Positions 46,588-51,201 of a stretch of DNA of 51,417 nt are shown in pieces. The DNA comes from a virus. Each line of letters begins with the position of its first letter. Positions within the stretch are counted from its first letter, which is position 1. Under the pieces are notes generated by a model, which did not search any database, was not told the origin of the DNA, and worked only from the letters and a program-made list of their open reading frames with translations. A program made the translations under genes and the position numbers. The stretch is taken from the IMG/VR virus record IMGVR_UViG_3300009124_000024, positions 1-51,417 of that record, one strand, 5' to 3'.

Positions 46588-47053
46588 TGACTATCCTCCT
46601 ATACATTGATGGCGACCAATACTTATAATAATCAGTTTTGTGCAAAGTTTCTCTCGCACTCTCTAATTTATCACGTTTTTGAATGAGTAGCAAGTTTCCT
46701 TTACTAAAGTTTGTCTGGACACCACTAATGTGAGTAGTGTCATCCATATGATCATCAAGCACAACATACTCTGCTTGACTCATATTAAGTTCCGCAACCC
46801 GCTGCATCATAGCGCATTCAGAGATGTCGTCCTCCAAAATGAAGATGATAACGTCCGCATCAGGTAATGAATTCAGAGTCACACGCCGCAAGGCACGCTC
46901 CTCTATATGAACAGACGCAGAAAAAGCGTAGGGACAGATGGAATGTCCACCCAGTTCCCCACGCTTCTCAGAGATATTCTTAATCCATTCTCTAACTTTA
47001 CTTACCTTGTCCACGATACATTTTTCTCGCTTTGTTGCGACTGGTACTGGCAT
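46565..47053 (-). CDS. Cyanophage conserved hypothetical protein with CPYA motif, up to 162 aa
   Basis: The reading frame gives up to 162 aa from an ATG at 47053 (MPVPVATKREKC). The recognisable conserved part begins about residue 15: VREWIKNISEKRGELGGHSI, then CPYAFSA, followed by ADVIIFILEDDISE and EYVVLDDHM. The ELGGxxICPYA stretch recurs in cyanophage proteins of this kind as I recall. The alternating strand/helix pattern suggests a compact alpha/beta fold. The first 15 residues overlap the 48-aa gene in another frame, so a later GTG (VDKVSK) may be the true start. No enzymatic activity can be assigned; the single conserved Cys could be catalytic or metal-binding. Confidence 0.72.
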   Translation of the reverse strand: MPVPVATKREKCIVDKVSKVREWIKNISEKRGELGGHSICPYAFSASVHIEERALRRVTLNSLPDADVIIFILEDDISECAMMQRVAELNMSQAEYVVLDDHMDDTTHISGVQTNFSKGNLLLIQKRDKLESARETLHKTDYYKYWSPSMYRRIVNGKFTSR

Positions 47054-47144
47054 ATTTAGTATGCTTCCCCTTTCCCTGACGGGATTTCTTGGGTTTTGCT
47101 TCTACGTAACCGCCAGAACCTGTGAGTGAAGGACGCTTTGCCAT
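46998..47144 (-). CDS. Small basic protein, 48 aa
   Basis: This ORF (MAKRPSLTGSGGYVEAKPKK, then SRQGKGKHTKYASTSRNKAR, ending MYRGQGK) runs from an ATG with a good ribosome site (CGGAGA) to a TAA. It is very rich in Lys, Arg, Gly and Ser, with almost no acidic residue, as expected of an RNA-, DNA- or phosphate-binding peptide. It overlaps the first ~56 bases of the 162-aa ORF in a different frame. I recall closely similar small basic proteins at this position in marine T4-like cyanophages, function unknown. A TATAAT-like hexamer lies about 20 nt upstream of the ATG. Confidence 0.68.
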   Translation of the reverse strand: MAKRPSLTGSGGYVEAKPKKSRQGKGKHTKYASTSRNKARKMYRGQGK

Positions 47145-48520: not shown

Positions 48521-48721
48521 CTAGCTAACTGCTGCGAGAGATCTTCTCACTTGTCGCTTAATCTGTGCGATGGCATAGTTATCAGATGGAGATTTGCTGC
48601 ATGTTTGAACTAAACCCAATGTGGGATGTTTATATTTAAGGTGCTTAGAATCGTCAAAGAAAACAAATCCAGATTCTGCCATGATGGCATCAACTGCCTT
48701 GCGATACTTCCTGATGTTCAT
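48521..48721 (-). CDS. HicA-like small RNA-binding / RNase-fold protein, 66 aa
   Basis: The 66-aa protein has the layout of HicA/YcfA-like dsRBD-fold proteins: an N-terminal helix (MNIRKYRKAVDAIMAESG), FVFF, a short strand pair around KHLKYKHPTLGLVQT with a His (residue 27) at the position used as catalytic His in HicA, then SKSPSDNYAIAQIKRQVRRS. HicA toxins cleave mRNA and are about this size. The 'SPSD.xA...IK.Q.RR' ending resembles the distinctive HicA-like end seen in phage proteins. No HicB-type antitoxin is recognisable; the partner upstream is the unrelated-looking 71-aa gene, 9 nt away. A toxin role is speculative; it could be a phage RNA-binding protein acting on host mRNA. Confidence 0.6.
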   Translation of the reverse strand: MNIRKYRKAVDAIMAESGFVFFDDSKHLKYKHPTLGLVQTCSKSPSDNYAIAQIKRQVRRSLAAVS

Positions 48722-48730
48722 AGTAGAGAA

Positions 48731-48946
48731 TCAAGCGCAGTGGGCGAAACCGATAGACTCGGTGATGGGTGACGAGCGAACCCAGGCAACGGGTTCACCA
48801 GAGGGAGGGCATCGCCAGATGATGCATTCCTCTCCCCATGCCTTAGCGAGACGGTAGGCGTGGTTGATGTCGGTTGCCCAATCGCATCCCCACTCATCGA
48901 AGGATGACCATGAGGCAGGTTGGACAGCGAAGCAAGCGGTGGGCAT
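48731..48946 (-). CDS. Hypothetical protein, 71 aa, upstream partner of the HicA-like gene
   Basis: The 71-aa protein starts MPTACFAVQPASWSSFDEWG and continues with a helix (DINHAYRLAKAWGEECIIWR) and a strand-rich end (PPSGEPVAWVRSSPITESIG). It contains four Cys and several Trp, unusual in its surroundings. I recognise no family and it does not look like HicB. It shares a promoter and terminator with the 66-aa gene. The ATG is preceded by a leader of about 20 nt containing AACAACAACACAGACACAC, nearly identical in style to the leader before the 70-aa gene at 49353. Confidence 0.58.
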   Translation of the reverse strand: MPTACFAVQPASWSSFDEWGCDWATDINHAYRLAKAWGEECIIWRCPPSGEPVAWVRSSPITESIGFAHCA

Positions 48947-48968
48947 GTGTGTCTGTGTTGTTGTTGAT

Positions 48969-49013
48969 ATTCTACAGGGTCAGGGGCGCACTGCCTGCTC
49001 TATGGTGGACAGT
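48969..49013 (-). promoter_or_regulatory. Promoter D: ACTGTCCACCAT element, 27-nt spacer, TAGAAT
   Basis: The minus strand has the 12-mer ACTGTCCACCAT (49002-49013) followed after exactly 27 nt by TAGAAT (48969-48974), then a leader of about 22 nt to the ATG of the 71-aa gene. The 12-mer lies inside the reading frame of the 37-aa peptide. The same 12-mer-to-hexamer geometry recurs at 49802-49846 and 50770-50814. Confidence 0.6.
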
Positions 49014-49093
49014 GCGTCTGCCGTCACAGTACGGGCAGGGGTGCTAGTCCAGAAGAGAACGCCAACCGCTGCCAGGATGATGAGTCGGAACAT
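48980..49093 (-). CDS. Small predicted exported peptide, 37 aa
   Basis: The ORF encodes a Met-Phe-Arg start, a hydrophobic core (LIILAAVGVLFW), then TSTPARTVTADALST and IEQAVRP. The short positive N-terminus, hydrophobic core and TPA-type end resemble a signal peptide or a single membrane anchor. The mature part would be about 20 residues. The ORF ends 6 nt before the TAGAAT of promoter D, and that promoter's upstream element lies within its frame. Small peptides of the 'TADGL..IE..' kind occur in cyanophages as far as I recall. No Shine-Dalgarno is obvious. Confidence 0.5.
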   Translation of the reverse strand: MFRLIILAAVGVLFWTSTPARTVTADALSTIEQAVRP

Positions 49094-49140
49094 GGTCTGC
49101 CTGTGGTAGGATGGGGAACGGGGTTTGGTAAGGGCGTCGA

Positions 49141-49353
49141 TCACAGGTCTGCCAGCATCTCATCCAGGGCAGCAGTGTCGATCGTGCCATCCATCCAGCG
49201 GGCACCGTCTGGGGTCATCTGCCCCCACATCATCTCAAGGCGAGGGATCAGGCGATCGTAAGAATCGTAGCGCTGGGCGACCTTATAGGTCGTCTCGTCG
49301 TTGCTGATCCAGAGGGCGACGTTCCAGGTTGCCCAGTTTGCCCATCCGTTCAT
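49141..49353 (-). CDS. DUF7249-like protein, 70 aa
   Basis: The 70-aa product begins MNGWANWATWNVALWISNDE, a pattern (N..TWNVALWI.ND) that I associate with a phage and plasmid family now called DUF7249, followed by TTYKVAQRYDSYDRLIPRLE and an acidic end. It is short, Trp-rich and cytosolic in character; the function is unknown. The leader shares CCTGTAGGATA with the promoter D region and contains a CACACAACACACAAACGGAG stretch with a GGAG ribosome site before the ATG. Confidence 0.72.
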   Translation of the reverse strand: MNGWANWATWNVALWISNDETTYKVAQRYDSYDRLIPRLEMMWGQMTPDGARWMDGTIDTAALDEMLADL

Positions 49354-49400
49354 CGTGTGTCTCCGTTTGTGTGTTGTGTGTATCCTACAGGCAGTGCCGC

Positions 49401-49586
49401 TCAGTGGCGGTCGCTGATGTGCCAGTTACCCGACTGACTGGTGGCAACGCGACCCTCACGAACTGCCTTGCGGTATGCTGCCTCTCGTGCGAGTTGCTGC
49501 ATGTAGGATGCCATAGCACCCTGCACAGCGGGGTCGTTGGCAGCAGTGGCATTGGTCAGGAACATTCCGTTGTGTTGTTTGATCAT
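49401..49586 (-). CDS. Small hypothetical protein, 61 aa
   Basis: I use the ATG at 49586 (MIKQHNGMFLTNATAANDPA), because the longer version from 49649 reads through promoter C and the end of the upstream gene. The protein has a helix (AVQGAMASYMQQLAREAAYR) and a basic stretch followed by SGNWHISDRH. No family recognised. Its start lies 6 nt downstream of the TATACT -10, so its message may be leaderless. Confidence 0.62.
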   Translation of the reverse strand: MIKQHNGMFLTNATAANDPAVQGAMASYMQQLAREAAYRKAVREGRVATSQSGNWHISDRH

Positions 49587-49592
49587 GTCCTT

Positions 49593-49635
49593 AGTATAGG
49601 GGATCTGGTGGGCAGTGGGGAGAATGGTGGACAGT
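49593..49635 (-). promoter_or_regulatory. Promoter C: ACTGTCCACCAT element, 25-nt spacer, TATACT
   Basis: The minus strand has ACTGTCCACCAT (49624-49635), then 25 nt, then TATACT (49593-49598), 6 nt before the ATG at 49586. The element starts just after the stop codon of the 52-aa gene. Spacing is two bases shorter than in copies A, B and D. Confidence 0.62.
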
Positions 49636-49636
49636 C

Positions 49637-49795
49637 TCAGGATTGCCACATGGCACGACGGCGACGCTTCTCAACTTGCTTAGGGGTCAGGCAGGCACCC
49701 TGTCCGAAGTTCTCAGACTGACACCAGTTCCGAGGGGGTGTATAGTTCTCACCGAAGGCAGCGAGGTTGGAGCGGATGCGTTGATCGTTGTTCAT
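49637..49795 (-). CDS. Small hypothetical protein, 52 aa
   Basis: The ORF starts ATGAACAACGATC and encodes MNNDQRIRSNLAAFGENYTP, then PRNWCQSENFGQGACLTPKQ and a basic end (VEKRRRRAMWQS). Two Cys and a cluster of Arg stand out. The ATG lies 6 nt after a TATAAT box, predicting a leaderless message. The first five codons resemble the start of the 63-aa gene (ATGAACAA). No family recognised. Nucleic-acid binding is possible given the Arg cluster. Confidence 0.6.
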   Translation of the reverse strand: MNNDQRIRSNLAAFGENYTPPRNWCQSENFGQGACLTPKQVEKRRRRAMWQS

Positions 49796-49801
49796 GAAAC
49801 C

Positions 49802-49846
49802 ATTATAGGCACAGGGTGGGACGATTCCAGGGTGATGGTGGACAGT
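49802..49846 (-). promoter_or_regulatory. Promoter A: ACTGTCCACCAT element, 27-nt spacer, TATAAT
   Basis: The minus strand has ACTGTCCACCAT (49835-49846), then 27 nt, then TATAAT (49802-49807), 6 nt (GGTTTC) before the ATG at 49795. No good -35 hexamer is visible at the usual spacing, so the upstream element may substitute for it. Confidence 0.68.
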
Positions 49847-49872
49847 GTGCCAACTGACCCTGGTCAGCCGCG

Positions 49873-49901
49873 ATTCTCAATAGTGGATGTAAATTGAGAA
49901 T
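49873..49901. other. Hairpin with 9-bp stem (ATTCTCAAT / ATTGAGAAT)
   Basis: A perfect 9-bp inverted repeat with an 11-nt loop lies between the 67-aa gene and promoter A. It has no T tract on either side, so it is unlikely to be an intrinsic terminator. It could be an RNA processing or protein-binding site. Confidence 0.5.
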
Positions 49902-49923
49902 GCATGATTGCAGCGGATGAGTG

Positions 49924-50127
49924 TTACTGTGCCTCAGGGATTAGATCGATCAAAGTCTCCTCATCATAGAGATCTTTGATCTCTTCAATCATCTCATCCT
50001 CACTGCAATCCTTGTATGCATTCATTAGATATTCATGCACTATTGTCACCAGGCAATCTGTATCCATGCCATCGATAATGAGGTTGGCATAGTTCTCTTT
50101 AAGAGCAAAGAGTTCAGCGTCGTTCAT
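49924..50127 (-). CDS. Acidic helical protein, 67 aa, cyanophage-type
   Basis: The 67-aa protein is predicted helical and strongly acidic: MNDAELFALKENYANLIIDG, then MDTDCLVTIVHEYLMNAYKD and MIEEIKDLYDEETLIDLIPE. I recall similar small acidic proteins with EEIxDLYDEE in T4-like cyanophages. The charge could mimic nucleic acid or bind a basic host protein, but no target is evident. The ATG lacks a strong ribosome site and lies 39 nt after the stop of the 110-aa gene. Confidence 0.66.
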   Translation of the reverse strand: MNDAELFALKENYANLIIDGMDTDCLVTIVHEYLMNAYKDCSEDEMIEEIKDLYDEETLIDLIPEAQ

Positions 50128-50166
50128 GTTAAGAATGCAGTGGTGAATGTGTGGACTAAGTGTAAC

Positions 50167-50499
50167 TCAACCCAGACGCATAGAAGAGAAGAATGGGACA
50201 GTAGTTAGACCCTGTGCAGTGTTCATCTGAACGAACCATTCAAAGTTCTTTTGAAACACACCGTCACCCTTTTCACCATGCTCAGTGAGAATAGCATTCA
50301 GACGAGATTTGGTGGTGTTAGATTGCCAACCACCATCAAAGAGGCGGATGAAAGTATCACCAACATCAGCAATATGATTGCCATGCAGGAACACTTGAGA
50401 AACACCAGTCTCAGAATCGAAAGTAACAGCAGTGTTACCAGATTGCCAGTTCTTGTTGTTAGAAATGGCATTGTTCATTTGCTGTTCGATCTTACGCAT
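50167..50499 (-). CDS. Cyanophage conserved hypothetical protein, 110 aa
   Basis: The 110-aa protein starts MRKIEQQMNNAISNNKNWQS, followed by a strand region (AVTFDSETGVSQVFLHGNHI), FIRLFDGGWQSNTTKSRLNA and an end VPFFSSMRLG. I believe this type, with a 'MRKIEQQMN.AI.N.KNW' start, recurs in cyanophages and cyanobacterial mobile DNA; no function is known. A TATAGT hexamer about 32 nt upstream could be its -10. The Asn/Lys-rich start and compact strand-helix pattern suggest a small DNA- or RNA-binding protein, which is inference. Confidence 0.68.
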   Translation of the reverse strand: MRKIEQQMNNAISNNKNWQSGNTAVTFDSETGVSQVFLHGNHIADVGDTFIRLFDGGWQSNTTKSRLNAILTEHGEKGDGVFQKNFEWFVQMNTAQGLTTVPFFSSMRLG

Positions 50500-50543
50500 G
50501 ATTTGAAGTGGTTTGTGAACTTGAGACTATATTTGCAGAGGAT

Positions 50544-50562
50544 GGGGGCAATTGCAACCCCC
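50544..50562. other. Short GC hairpin without T tract after the 63-aa gene
   Basis: A 5-bp G/C stem with a 9-nt loop lies 9 nt after the 63-aa gene's stop. The loop contains most of GCAATTGC. No run of T follows, so terminator activity is doubtful. Confidence 0.35.
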
Positions 50563-50571
50563 TGTGTGACA

Positions 50572-50763
50572 CTAGATCAACTGGTCAGCAACTGCCCCCA
50601 TAACGTCGCCATACTCTCCCACAATGTCACCGAAGGCATCTCGGATGTAGGCATAAGATCCGCTCTCGTCATGCATAGAGAAGCAGATGTCCATGGCACG
50701 ATCCAGGTCGGTCGTGGTCTCGGTCTCGCCCAGGGCAGGGCAGGTGATGGTGAAATTGTTCAT
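50572..50763 (-). CDS. Small hypothetical protein, 63 aa
   Basis: The 63-aa product begins MNNFTITCPALGETETTTDL and has an acidic helix (DRAMDICFSMHDESGSYAYI) and a C-terminal FGDIVGEYGDVMGAVADQLI. It contains two Cys and many acidic residues, and appears cytosolic. The ATG lies 6 nt after TATAAT, so the message may be leaderless. No family recognised. Confidence 0.62.
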   Translation of the reverse strand: MNNFTITCPALGETETTTDLDRAMDICFSMHDESGSYAYIRDAFGDIVGEYGDVMGAVADQLI

Positions 50764-50769
50764 GCAACC

Positions 50770-50814
50770 ATTATAAGCACGGGGTCTGGCGATCTGAGGT
50801 CAACAGTGGACAGT
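50770..50814 (-). promoter_or_regulatory. Promoter B: ACTGTCCACTGT element, 27-nt spacer, TATAAT
   Basis: The minus strand has ACTGTCCACTGT (50803-50814), then 27 nt, then TATAAT (50770-50775), 6 nt (GGTTGC) before the ATG at 50763. The element is preceded by TGTGACGG at the same distance as in promoter D (TGTGACGG, 6 nt, CACTGTCCAC). Confidence 0.68.
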
Positions 50815-50824
50815 GTGCCGACCG

Positions 50825-50938
50825 TCACACCAATTTCTTATACAAACTAATGCAATGCTTGATGACAACAAACCAGAAGATGTGTGGGCGAGTGTATACT
50901 TCAAAGGATGGCATGTAGGGTTCAGTTCGTGCTGCCAT
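50825..50938 (-). CDS. Small possible membrane peptide, 37 aa
   Basis: The ORF encodes MAARTEPYMPSFEVYTRPHI followed by FWFVVIKHCISLYKKLV. The second half is hydrophobic with a basic end, consistent with a membrane-associated helix. It starts 9 bases after the stop of the 60-aa gene, so it could be coupled to it. No ribosome site is evident. Uncertain gene. Confidence 0.4.
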   Translation of the reverse strand: MAARTEPYMPSFEVYTRPHIFWFVVIKHCISLYKKLV

Positions 50939-50947
50939 GAGTTTGTA

Positions 50948-51130
50948 TCAGTTAGTGCCGAACATTTCTTGATACAAATCGAGATCCTGATTCTTATACT
51001 TTTCATTGGTCAACCAGATCTCTTGTTCAATCCATGCAACTTCGTTTCGTGCTTTCAACAAACGCTCGCGCAGTTCGTATAACTTTTGGTTGCGCTCAGT
51101 GATAGTCAAAATGAAAAATCCCGTCAACAT
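50948..51130 (-). CDS. Small helical protein, up to 60 aa (start uncertain)
   Basis: From the ATG at 51130 the product begins MLTGFFILTITERNQKLYEL, then a coiled-coil-like helix (RERLLKARNEVAWIEQEI) and LYQEMFGTN. The ATG sits inside the first-strand arm of the terminator-like hairpin at 51114-51152, so the first residues are coded by hairpin and T-tract DNA. A later TTG giving TITERN is an alternative start that clears the hairpin. A GTGTCCAC element lies 39-46 nt upstream of the ATG. No family recognised. Confidence 0.5.
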   Translation of the reverse strand: MLTGFFILTITERNQKLYELRERLLKARNEVAWIEQEIWLTNEKYKNQDLDLYQEMFGTN

Positions 51131-51152
51131 GTATACAATACACGTTAACGGG
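51114..51152 (-). terminator. Terminator-like hairpin overlapping the start of the 60-aa ORF
   Basis: On the minus strand a 15-bp stem (51138-51152 with 51120-51134, two G-U wobbles, 3-nt loop) is followed by ATTTTTC. It lies about 50 nt after the stop of the 53-aa gene, which it could terminate. The second arm contains the ATG of the next ORF. Confidence 0.75.
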
Positions 51153-51201
51153 TGCTTTGGGCAATTTAGTGGACACTTAGATTAGTGGCACACATTGTTG
51201 G

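Follow-up and report, generated by a model that had tools for sequence, protein, structure and literature searches.

The question raised by this locus is what drives transcription of a minus-strand run of small genes lying directly upstream of the baseplate genes gp25/gp6. The DNA analysed, positions 1 to 51,417 of IMG/VR record IMGVR_UViG_3300009124_000024 (51,417 nucleotides (nt); hereafter the window), is part of the genome of a T4-like cyanophage; the isolate closest to it is Synechococcus phage S-H9-2 (96.5% identity across 89% of the right part), with S-RIM32 second (81%). A sequence-only reading had pointed to a 12-mer repeated four times on the minus strand at a set distance from a -10 box, and had proposed a recurring, activator-driven promoter architecture in which three genes begin 6 nt past the -10. 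The four copies are where it placed them, with the 9-mer ACTGTCCAC exact at 49013-49005, 49635-49627, 49846-49838 and 50814-50806 and gaps from 12-mer to -10 of 27, 25, 27 and 27 nt (TAGAAT 48974, TATACT 49598, TATAAT 49807 and TATAAT 50775, respectively); the ATGs at 49586, 49795 and 50763, when re-measured, also lie exactly 6 nt past the -10. Only the 9-mer is invariant, the full 12-mer varying among copies (that at 50814 reads ACTGTCCACTGT), and its four occurrences on this strand compare with 0.40 expected, a count reached in 1 of 100 shuffles. These copies belong to a larger dyad operator which, combined with a -10 box and no -35, probably defines an activator-dependent sigma-70 promoter class of T4-like cyanophages.

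Comparison of Syn9, S-PM2, P-HM2, P-TIM40 and S-RIM32 gave the full element as TG[A/C]CA[G/C]TT-N4-AA[G/C]TG[G/T]C(A)CA, in which ACTGTCCAC is one variant of the right half. The repeat is thus not the stand-alone class II activator site at -40 to -51 first suggested, being half of a dyad operator centred at about -53.5 (with the -10 at -12 to -7, +1 being placed on the first base of the start codon in genes with the 6-nt distance). Exact ACTGTCCAC followed by TANNNT was discarded as a class marker, having matched once in S-H9-2 and not at all in nine other isolate phages; this failure reflects a right half that ranges from TGTCCAC to TGKCACAC. Once right-half variants were allowed, a scan of relatives for the motif at a set distance from TATAAT, the check initially recommended, did recover the architecture. 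Position-specific k-mer enrichment without a dyad model was uninformative in six genomes.

The geometry was established by two scans of IMG/VR. A search of 2.9 million viral contigs for ACTGTCCAC-N22..30-TATAAT-N3..9-ATG returned strongly non-uniform gaps, with 82 among the matches listed combining 28-30 nt with 6 nt and 18 combining 28-29 nt with 4 nt. With CAGTT-N4-AACTGTC-N14..44-TATAAT, the distance from dyad to TATAAT was 31-33 nt in 100 of 112 distinct sites, 14-44 nt being allowed. TATAAT was demanded by the search pattern and its conservation is not itself evidence. Other genomes supply stronger evidence than the four window copies do: over 100 IMG/VR contigs show the same layout, its spacing sharply peaked, which goes beyond chance. 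Across 217 non-redundant sites a TTGACA hexamer at 16-18 nt from the -10 was not conserved and no position around -35 exceeded 0.18 bit, in agreement with the earlier remark that no good -35 is visible; nor did any position between -40 and -21 exceed that value, as a MotA-type box near -30 would require. Canonical extended -10 sequences were mostly missing from element sites as well.

A spacing fixed to about 1 bp across spacers of free sequence fits an activator touching RNA polymerase, supporting the activator proposed in the sequence-only reading. The dyad might instead be a repressor operator that shuts the promoters later in infection, polymerase using the -10 alone with no activator. Operators with two half-sites are equally typical of repressors, the -10 boxes at the sites are strong and T4-like phages are generally known to switch early genes off; however, with its centre near -53.5 the dyad falls outside the core promoter, neither a -35 nor, in most cases, a canonical extended -10 is there to compensate, and spacing this exact is needed for polymerase contact, not for repression. 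We consider a repressor improbable.

The dyad could also act in RNA: where the preceding gene ends it would form a 3' stem-loop with a role in processing or stability, and its distance to the -10 would be incidental. In its perfect version it could fold on itself, pairing over 8 bp around a 4-nt loop, and the stop codon of the co-directional upstream open reading frame (ORF) falls within -25 to +14 of the operator, that is within or next to the dyad, in 219 of 293 sites. Yet among 139 isolate elements the arms vary independently at all eight pairs (p = 0.69 for the G/C table), with paired cells equal to the independent expectation at 8 of 8 positions, CAST/ASTG mismatches occur at many sites, and the fixed spacing to the -10 would be left unexplained. 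Independent variation of the arms argues for two protein-contacted half-sites of a DNA operator rather than an RNA hairpin, a reading that was rejected on the absent covariation and that we regard as most unlikely.

The architecture was originally described for the small genes of the window; it is instead a general promoter class of T4-like cyanophages. A weight matrix combining dyad, spacing and -10, trained on 58 isolate sites and applied with a cut-off score of at least 18, found 12 sites in S-H9-2, 15 in Syn9, 22 in S-RIM32, 33 in S-PM2, 17 in P-HM2, 21 in P-TIM40 and 22 in the freshwater phage S-CRM01, against 0.4-1.2 in shuffled genomes (Syn9 0.4, P-TIM40 0.8) and one in the pelagiphage HTVC008M, the six training genomes being partly circular as a test and S-CRM01 and HTVC008M independent. 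The dyad alone outnumbered its reversed pattern in all seven element-bearing phages and also in P-SSM2, Syn1, Sf-CH11, S-H9-1, S-RSM4 and S-WAM2; by the same comparison there was no clear enrichment in T4, S-TIM5, PSS2, Syn5, Ma-LMM01 or P-SSP7. In upstream regions of orthologous genes (S-H9-2, S-RSM4, S-WAM2, S-H9-1, Syn1 and IMG/VR contigs) the spacer has diverged, but dyad, spacing and ATG offset are all kept. The promoter class is common to T4-like cyanophages, both marine and freshwater, and is real rather than a product of chance.

The small genes had been proposed to form a regulon under a host or phage activator. An activator is indeed implied, but a wide regulon of host genes is unlikely: dyad counts were 19, 12 and 10 in WH7803, RCC307 and WH5701 against 27, 23 and 22 occurrences of the reversed control, and per-genome counts in 201 host-family genomes were similar to control, with no visible enrichment. 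Such a regulon was rejected on these grounds, the few conserved-looking host matches (L655-L662) having no comparable promoter. A host transcription factor exploited by the phage would be compatible with the activator-dependent class, and we give it serious weight, only slightly short of even. Early transcription must precede phage proteins unless the factor is injected, and PhoB binding at S-PM2 promoters offers a precedent (PMC10976474). The lack of enrichment in host genomes speaks against a host factor, although one with very few sites of its own would escape such counts, as do the lack of clear dyad enrichment in S-TIM5, Syn5 and P-SSP7, which infect such hosts but belong to other phage families, the retention of the dyad in S-CRM01, which has a different host, and its mismatch to both the Pho box and the NtcA consensus. 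The PhoB-activated genes of S-PM2 resemble the present ones in having a transcription factor bound upstream of cyanophage genes, but their Pho box, PyTTAAPyPyT/A, does not match the dyad (PMC10976474).

The phylogenetic range favours a binder specified by T4-like cyanophages, whereas a protein of the host, or one injected, would be favoured by early timing. Phage-encoded activators were sought among genes shared by the seven element-bearing phages and absent from HTVC008M; this phyletic search returned 23 Syn9 ORFs and no convincing candidate, most being spurious or known (psbA, psbD, MazG, ThyX-like, Hli), with phrog_516 and others besides, none preferable; no Ogr-type zinc-finger activator was identified among them. 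The window carries phrog_516 on the minus strand near gp25 (46998-47144), where it encodes a very basic protein of 48 aa; it occurs in 7 of 7 element-bearing phages and was not found in HTVC008M.

Element sites are also compact gene junctions. Among 318 IMG/VR sites picked regardless of ATG position, 71 hold a complete intrinsic terminator inside the spacer, its T-run ending just before the -10, compared with 0.4 in shuffled spacers and 0 in windows 100 nt downstream; the same was seen in 15 of 142 isolate sites, and the copies in the window have no spacer terminator. The unit is stop - operator - (terminator) - -10 - (leader) - ATG, and with terminators nested in this way it becomes clear how promoters for tens of individual small genes fit into very little space. 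Since the element sits at stop-to-start junctions of small genes and recurs before unrelated downstream genes, it might be a repeated linker, a recombination joint for swapping small-gene cassettes and not primarily a promoter. No long identity is found, however, conservation being restricted to operator, -10 box and short motifs in the leader, and the spacing to the -10 is promoter-like; we find this explanation very unlikely, and recombination may be a by-product.

The distance to the ATG is bimodal in the 318 sites, at 20-35 nt past the -10 in 224 and 4-7 nt in 17, with few between. The leaderless-type genes first noticed in the window therefore represent a real subset, whose 6-nt distance persists even in orthologues with protein identity as low as about 35-45%, but most members of the class have their ATG 20-35 nt past the -10. 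Leaderless-type spacing occurs in four of the six window genes, at 6 nt in three and at 4 nt in the gene starting at 51130. For the gene at 49586 the 6-nt distance is kept in the orthologues of S-WAM2, S-H9-2, S-RSM4 and L020, and also in those of Syn1, L109, L083 and L095, where the start codon has been set a few codons off. In S-H9-2 and L020 the orthologue has a TGA in frame two codons ahead of its ATG, which makes an earlier start impossible there and supports the ATG as the start; mechanical ORF calling stretches the window gene upstream across the -10, to a GTG at 49649. The leaderless subset explains the mis-annotated start codons of some small genes. In deposited records leaderless-type small genes have a misplaced start or are absent, as at 629-631 in S-H9-2 (MW147367), against an annotated 701, and at 191787-191972 in S-H9-1.

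Many leaderless-type IMG/VR sites (L006, L027, L034, L036, L043, L047 and others) precede DUF6267 genes (M(A)KNTHLEHxED..., PF19782/phrog_455), which in S-H9-2, S-RIM32 and P-HM2 have no such promoter. In sites with a leader, a recurring sequence, AACTTCAGTT-(M)AAAC, starts right past the -10 (in IMG/VR sites, at S-H9-2 122300 and at S-RIM32 184279), with TTCAGTT exactly at offset 3 in 31 of 224 leadered sites and in 1 of the control windows; a second type, GGTAATCAA, recurs at offset 5-6. The recurring leader is possibly an initial-transcribed or translation element.

As the probable mechanism, a dimeric DNA-binding protein would occupy the dyad TGNCASTT-N4-AASTGNCACA, centred some 53-54 bp upstream of the transcription start, and would bring the host RNA polymerase, carrying the primary sigma factor, to TATAAT in promoters that have no -35. 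The geometry from dyad to -10 is held to about 1 bp, and the free spacer often houses the terminator of the upstream gene. Most members would carry a leader of about 15-25 nt before the ATG; the genes at 49586, 49795, 50763 and probably 51130 are predicted, because of the usual distance from -10 to +1, to start at the ATG or no more than about 2 nt from it and to yield leaderless mRNAs. Activation, the use of sigma-70, early timing and leaderless translation are all suggested by sequence patterns. In Syn9 the sites are concentrated among the small genes upstream of gp25, with none immediately in front of psbA, psbD, talC, nrdA/B, gp43, gp41 or uvsX, and the auxiliary metabolic genes of P-HM2 are all middle genes (PMC5082946). 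That Syn9 sites shun auxiliary metabolic and core replication genes, and that the auxiliary metabolic genes of P-HM2 are middle genes, fits an early class without proving it. More tentatively, with confidence clearly below even, we suggest that an activator specified by T4-like cyanophages, injected or made at once, binds the dyad at about -53.5 and drives early promoters genome-wide as compact stop - operator - terminator - -10 - ATG junctions with a conserved leaderless subset. Two observations weigh against the activator-dependent early class: a few sites precede genes that are not necessarily early, such as cobS in the replication region (Syn9 130405, S-PM2 90563), and the window sites at 48974 and 49598 score only 15-16, near noise level.

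The sequence-only reading knew of no named cyanophage promoter motif of this kind, and a literature search for the motif string found nothing relevant; the promoter class has nonetheless probably been described. Doron et al. (2016, ISME J) reportedly presented a novel early-gene regulatory element of Syn9 and P-TIM40 that is conserved and abundant in T4-like cyanophages. Both phages carry the present element (15 and 21 sites), and we think it likely that the two are the same. A leaderless class, a nested terminator and a dyad geometry at -53.5 are not known to have formed part of that work, and these three features probably go beyond what has been described.

In the late promoters of P2 Ogr and P4 Delta, a phage activator binds a dyad near -55 and host sigma-70 polymerase is used with no useful -35. 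The present element is like them in geometry (about -53.5), but the operator sequence is different and those promoters are late, not early. T4 middle promoters have a non-palindromic MotA box at -30; they are alike in that an activator box stands in for the -35 before a sigma-70 -10, and T4 itself shows no clear enrichment of the dyad. Ogr/Delta and MotA promoters appear to be the closest mechanistic analogues, membership in neither being shown. Cyanomyoviruses have no motA and asiA homologues (PMC2984593). The repeated intergenic sequences of halovirus HF2 also carry promoters (PMC8707807), but this is an archaeal virus with archaeal promoters and an unrelated sequence. T4-like cyanophages, which are among the most abundant ocean viruses, do not have the T4 polymerase-redirecting proteins Alt, ModA/B, MotA and AsiA (PMC2984593), which bears on the question of how they seize host transcription. 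An operator of exact geometry and known consensus provides bait for the binding protein and allows candidate early genes to be predicted in thousands of uncultured genomes.

In the window itself, all four sites first reported are confirmed, but two were missed (operators 49438-49419 and 51189-51170), bringing the total to six (Table 1).

Table 1 Dyad operators and -10 boxes of the six window promoters, with the genes they precede.
Feature	Position	Strand	Remarks
Dyad operator 1, within GTGCCACTAATCTAAGTGTCCACT	51170..51189	-	Weight matrix score 20.0 with -10 at 51140; dyad and -10 kept in S-WAM2, L014 and L077 orthologues
-10 TATTGT, ATG 51130 4 nt on	51135..51140	-	Gene 51130-50948, 60 aa, phrog_19748; not reported earlier
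Dyad operator 2, within GTGACGGTCGGCACACTGTCCACT	50807..50826	-	Reported 12-mer at 50814-50803; operator TGA is the stop of upstream ORF 50938-50825
-10 TATAAT, ATG 50763 6 nt on	50770..50775	-	Predicted leaderless gene 50763-50572, 63 aa, phrog_25733; -10 and 6 nt kept in S-RSM4, S-WAM2, L014 and L020
Dyad operator 3, GTCAGTTGGCACACTGTCCA	49839..49858	-	Score 28.8, highest in the window; kept in S-H9-2 with altered 12-mer GAGTGTCCACT
-10 TATAAT, ATG 49795 6 nt on	49802..49807	-	Predicted leaderless gene 49795-49637, 52 aa
Dyad operator 4, within GTGGCAATCCTGAGACTGTCCACC	49628..49647	-	Score 16.3; stop codon of gene 49795-49637 inside operator
-10 TATACT, ATG 49586 6 nt on	49593..49598	-	Predicted leaderless gene 49586-49401, 61 aa, phrog_14769
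Dyad operator 5, within CAGTCAGTCGGGTAACTGGCACATCA	49419..49438	-	Score 25.2; inside 3' end of gene 49586-49401; identical in S-H9-2; not reported earlier
-10 TAGGAT, ATG 49353 28 nt on	49382..49387	-	Gene 49353-49141, 70 aa, DUF7249; ordinary leader with GGAG
Dyad operator 6, within GTGACGGCAGACGCACTGTCCACC	49006..49025	-	Score 15.2; weak left half; reported 12-mer at 49013-49002
-10 TAGAAT, ATG 48946 22 nt on	48969..48974	-	Gene 48946-48731, 71 aa, phrog_6036; not leaderless

The small genes at 48946, 49353, 49586 and 49795 overlap an island of raised guanine-cytosine (GC) content at 48700-49900, with 54-59% GC against 39% for the window, the island being near some marine Synechococcus hosts in its GC content.

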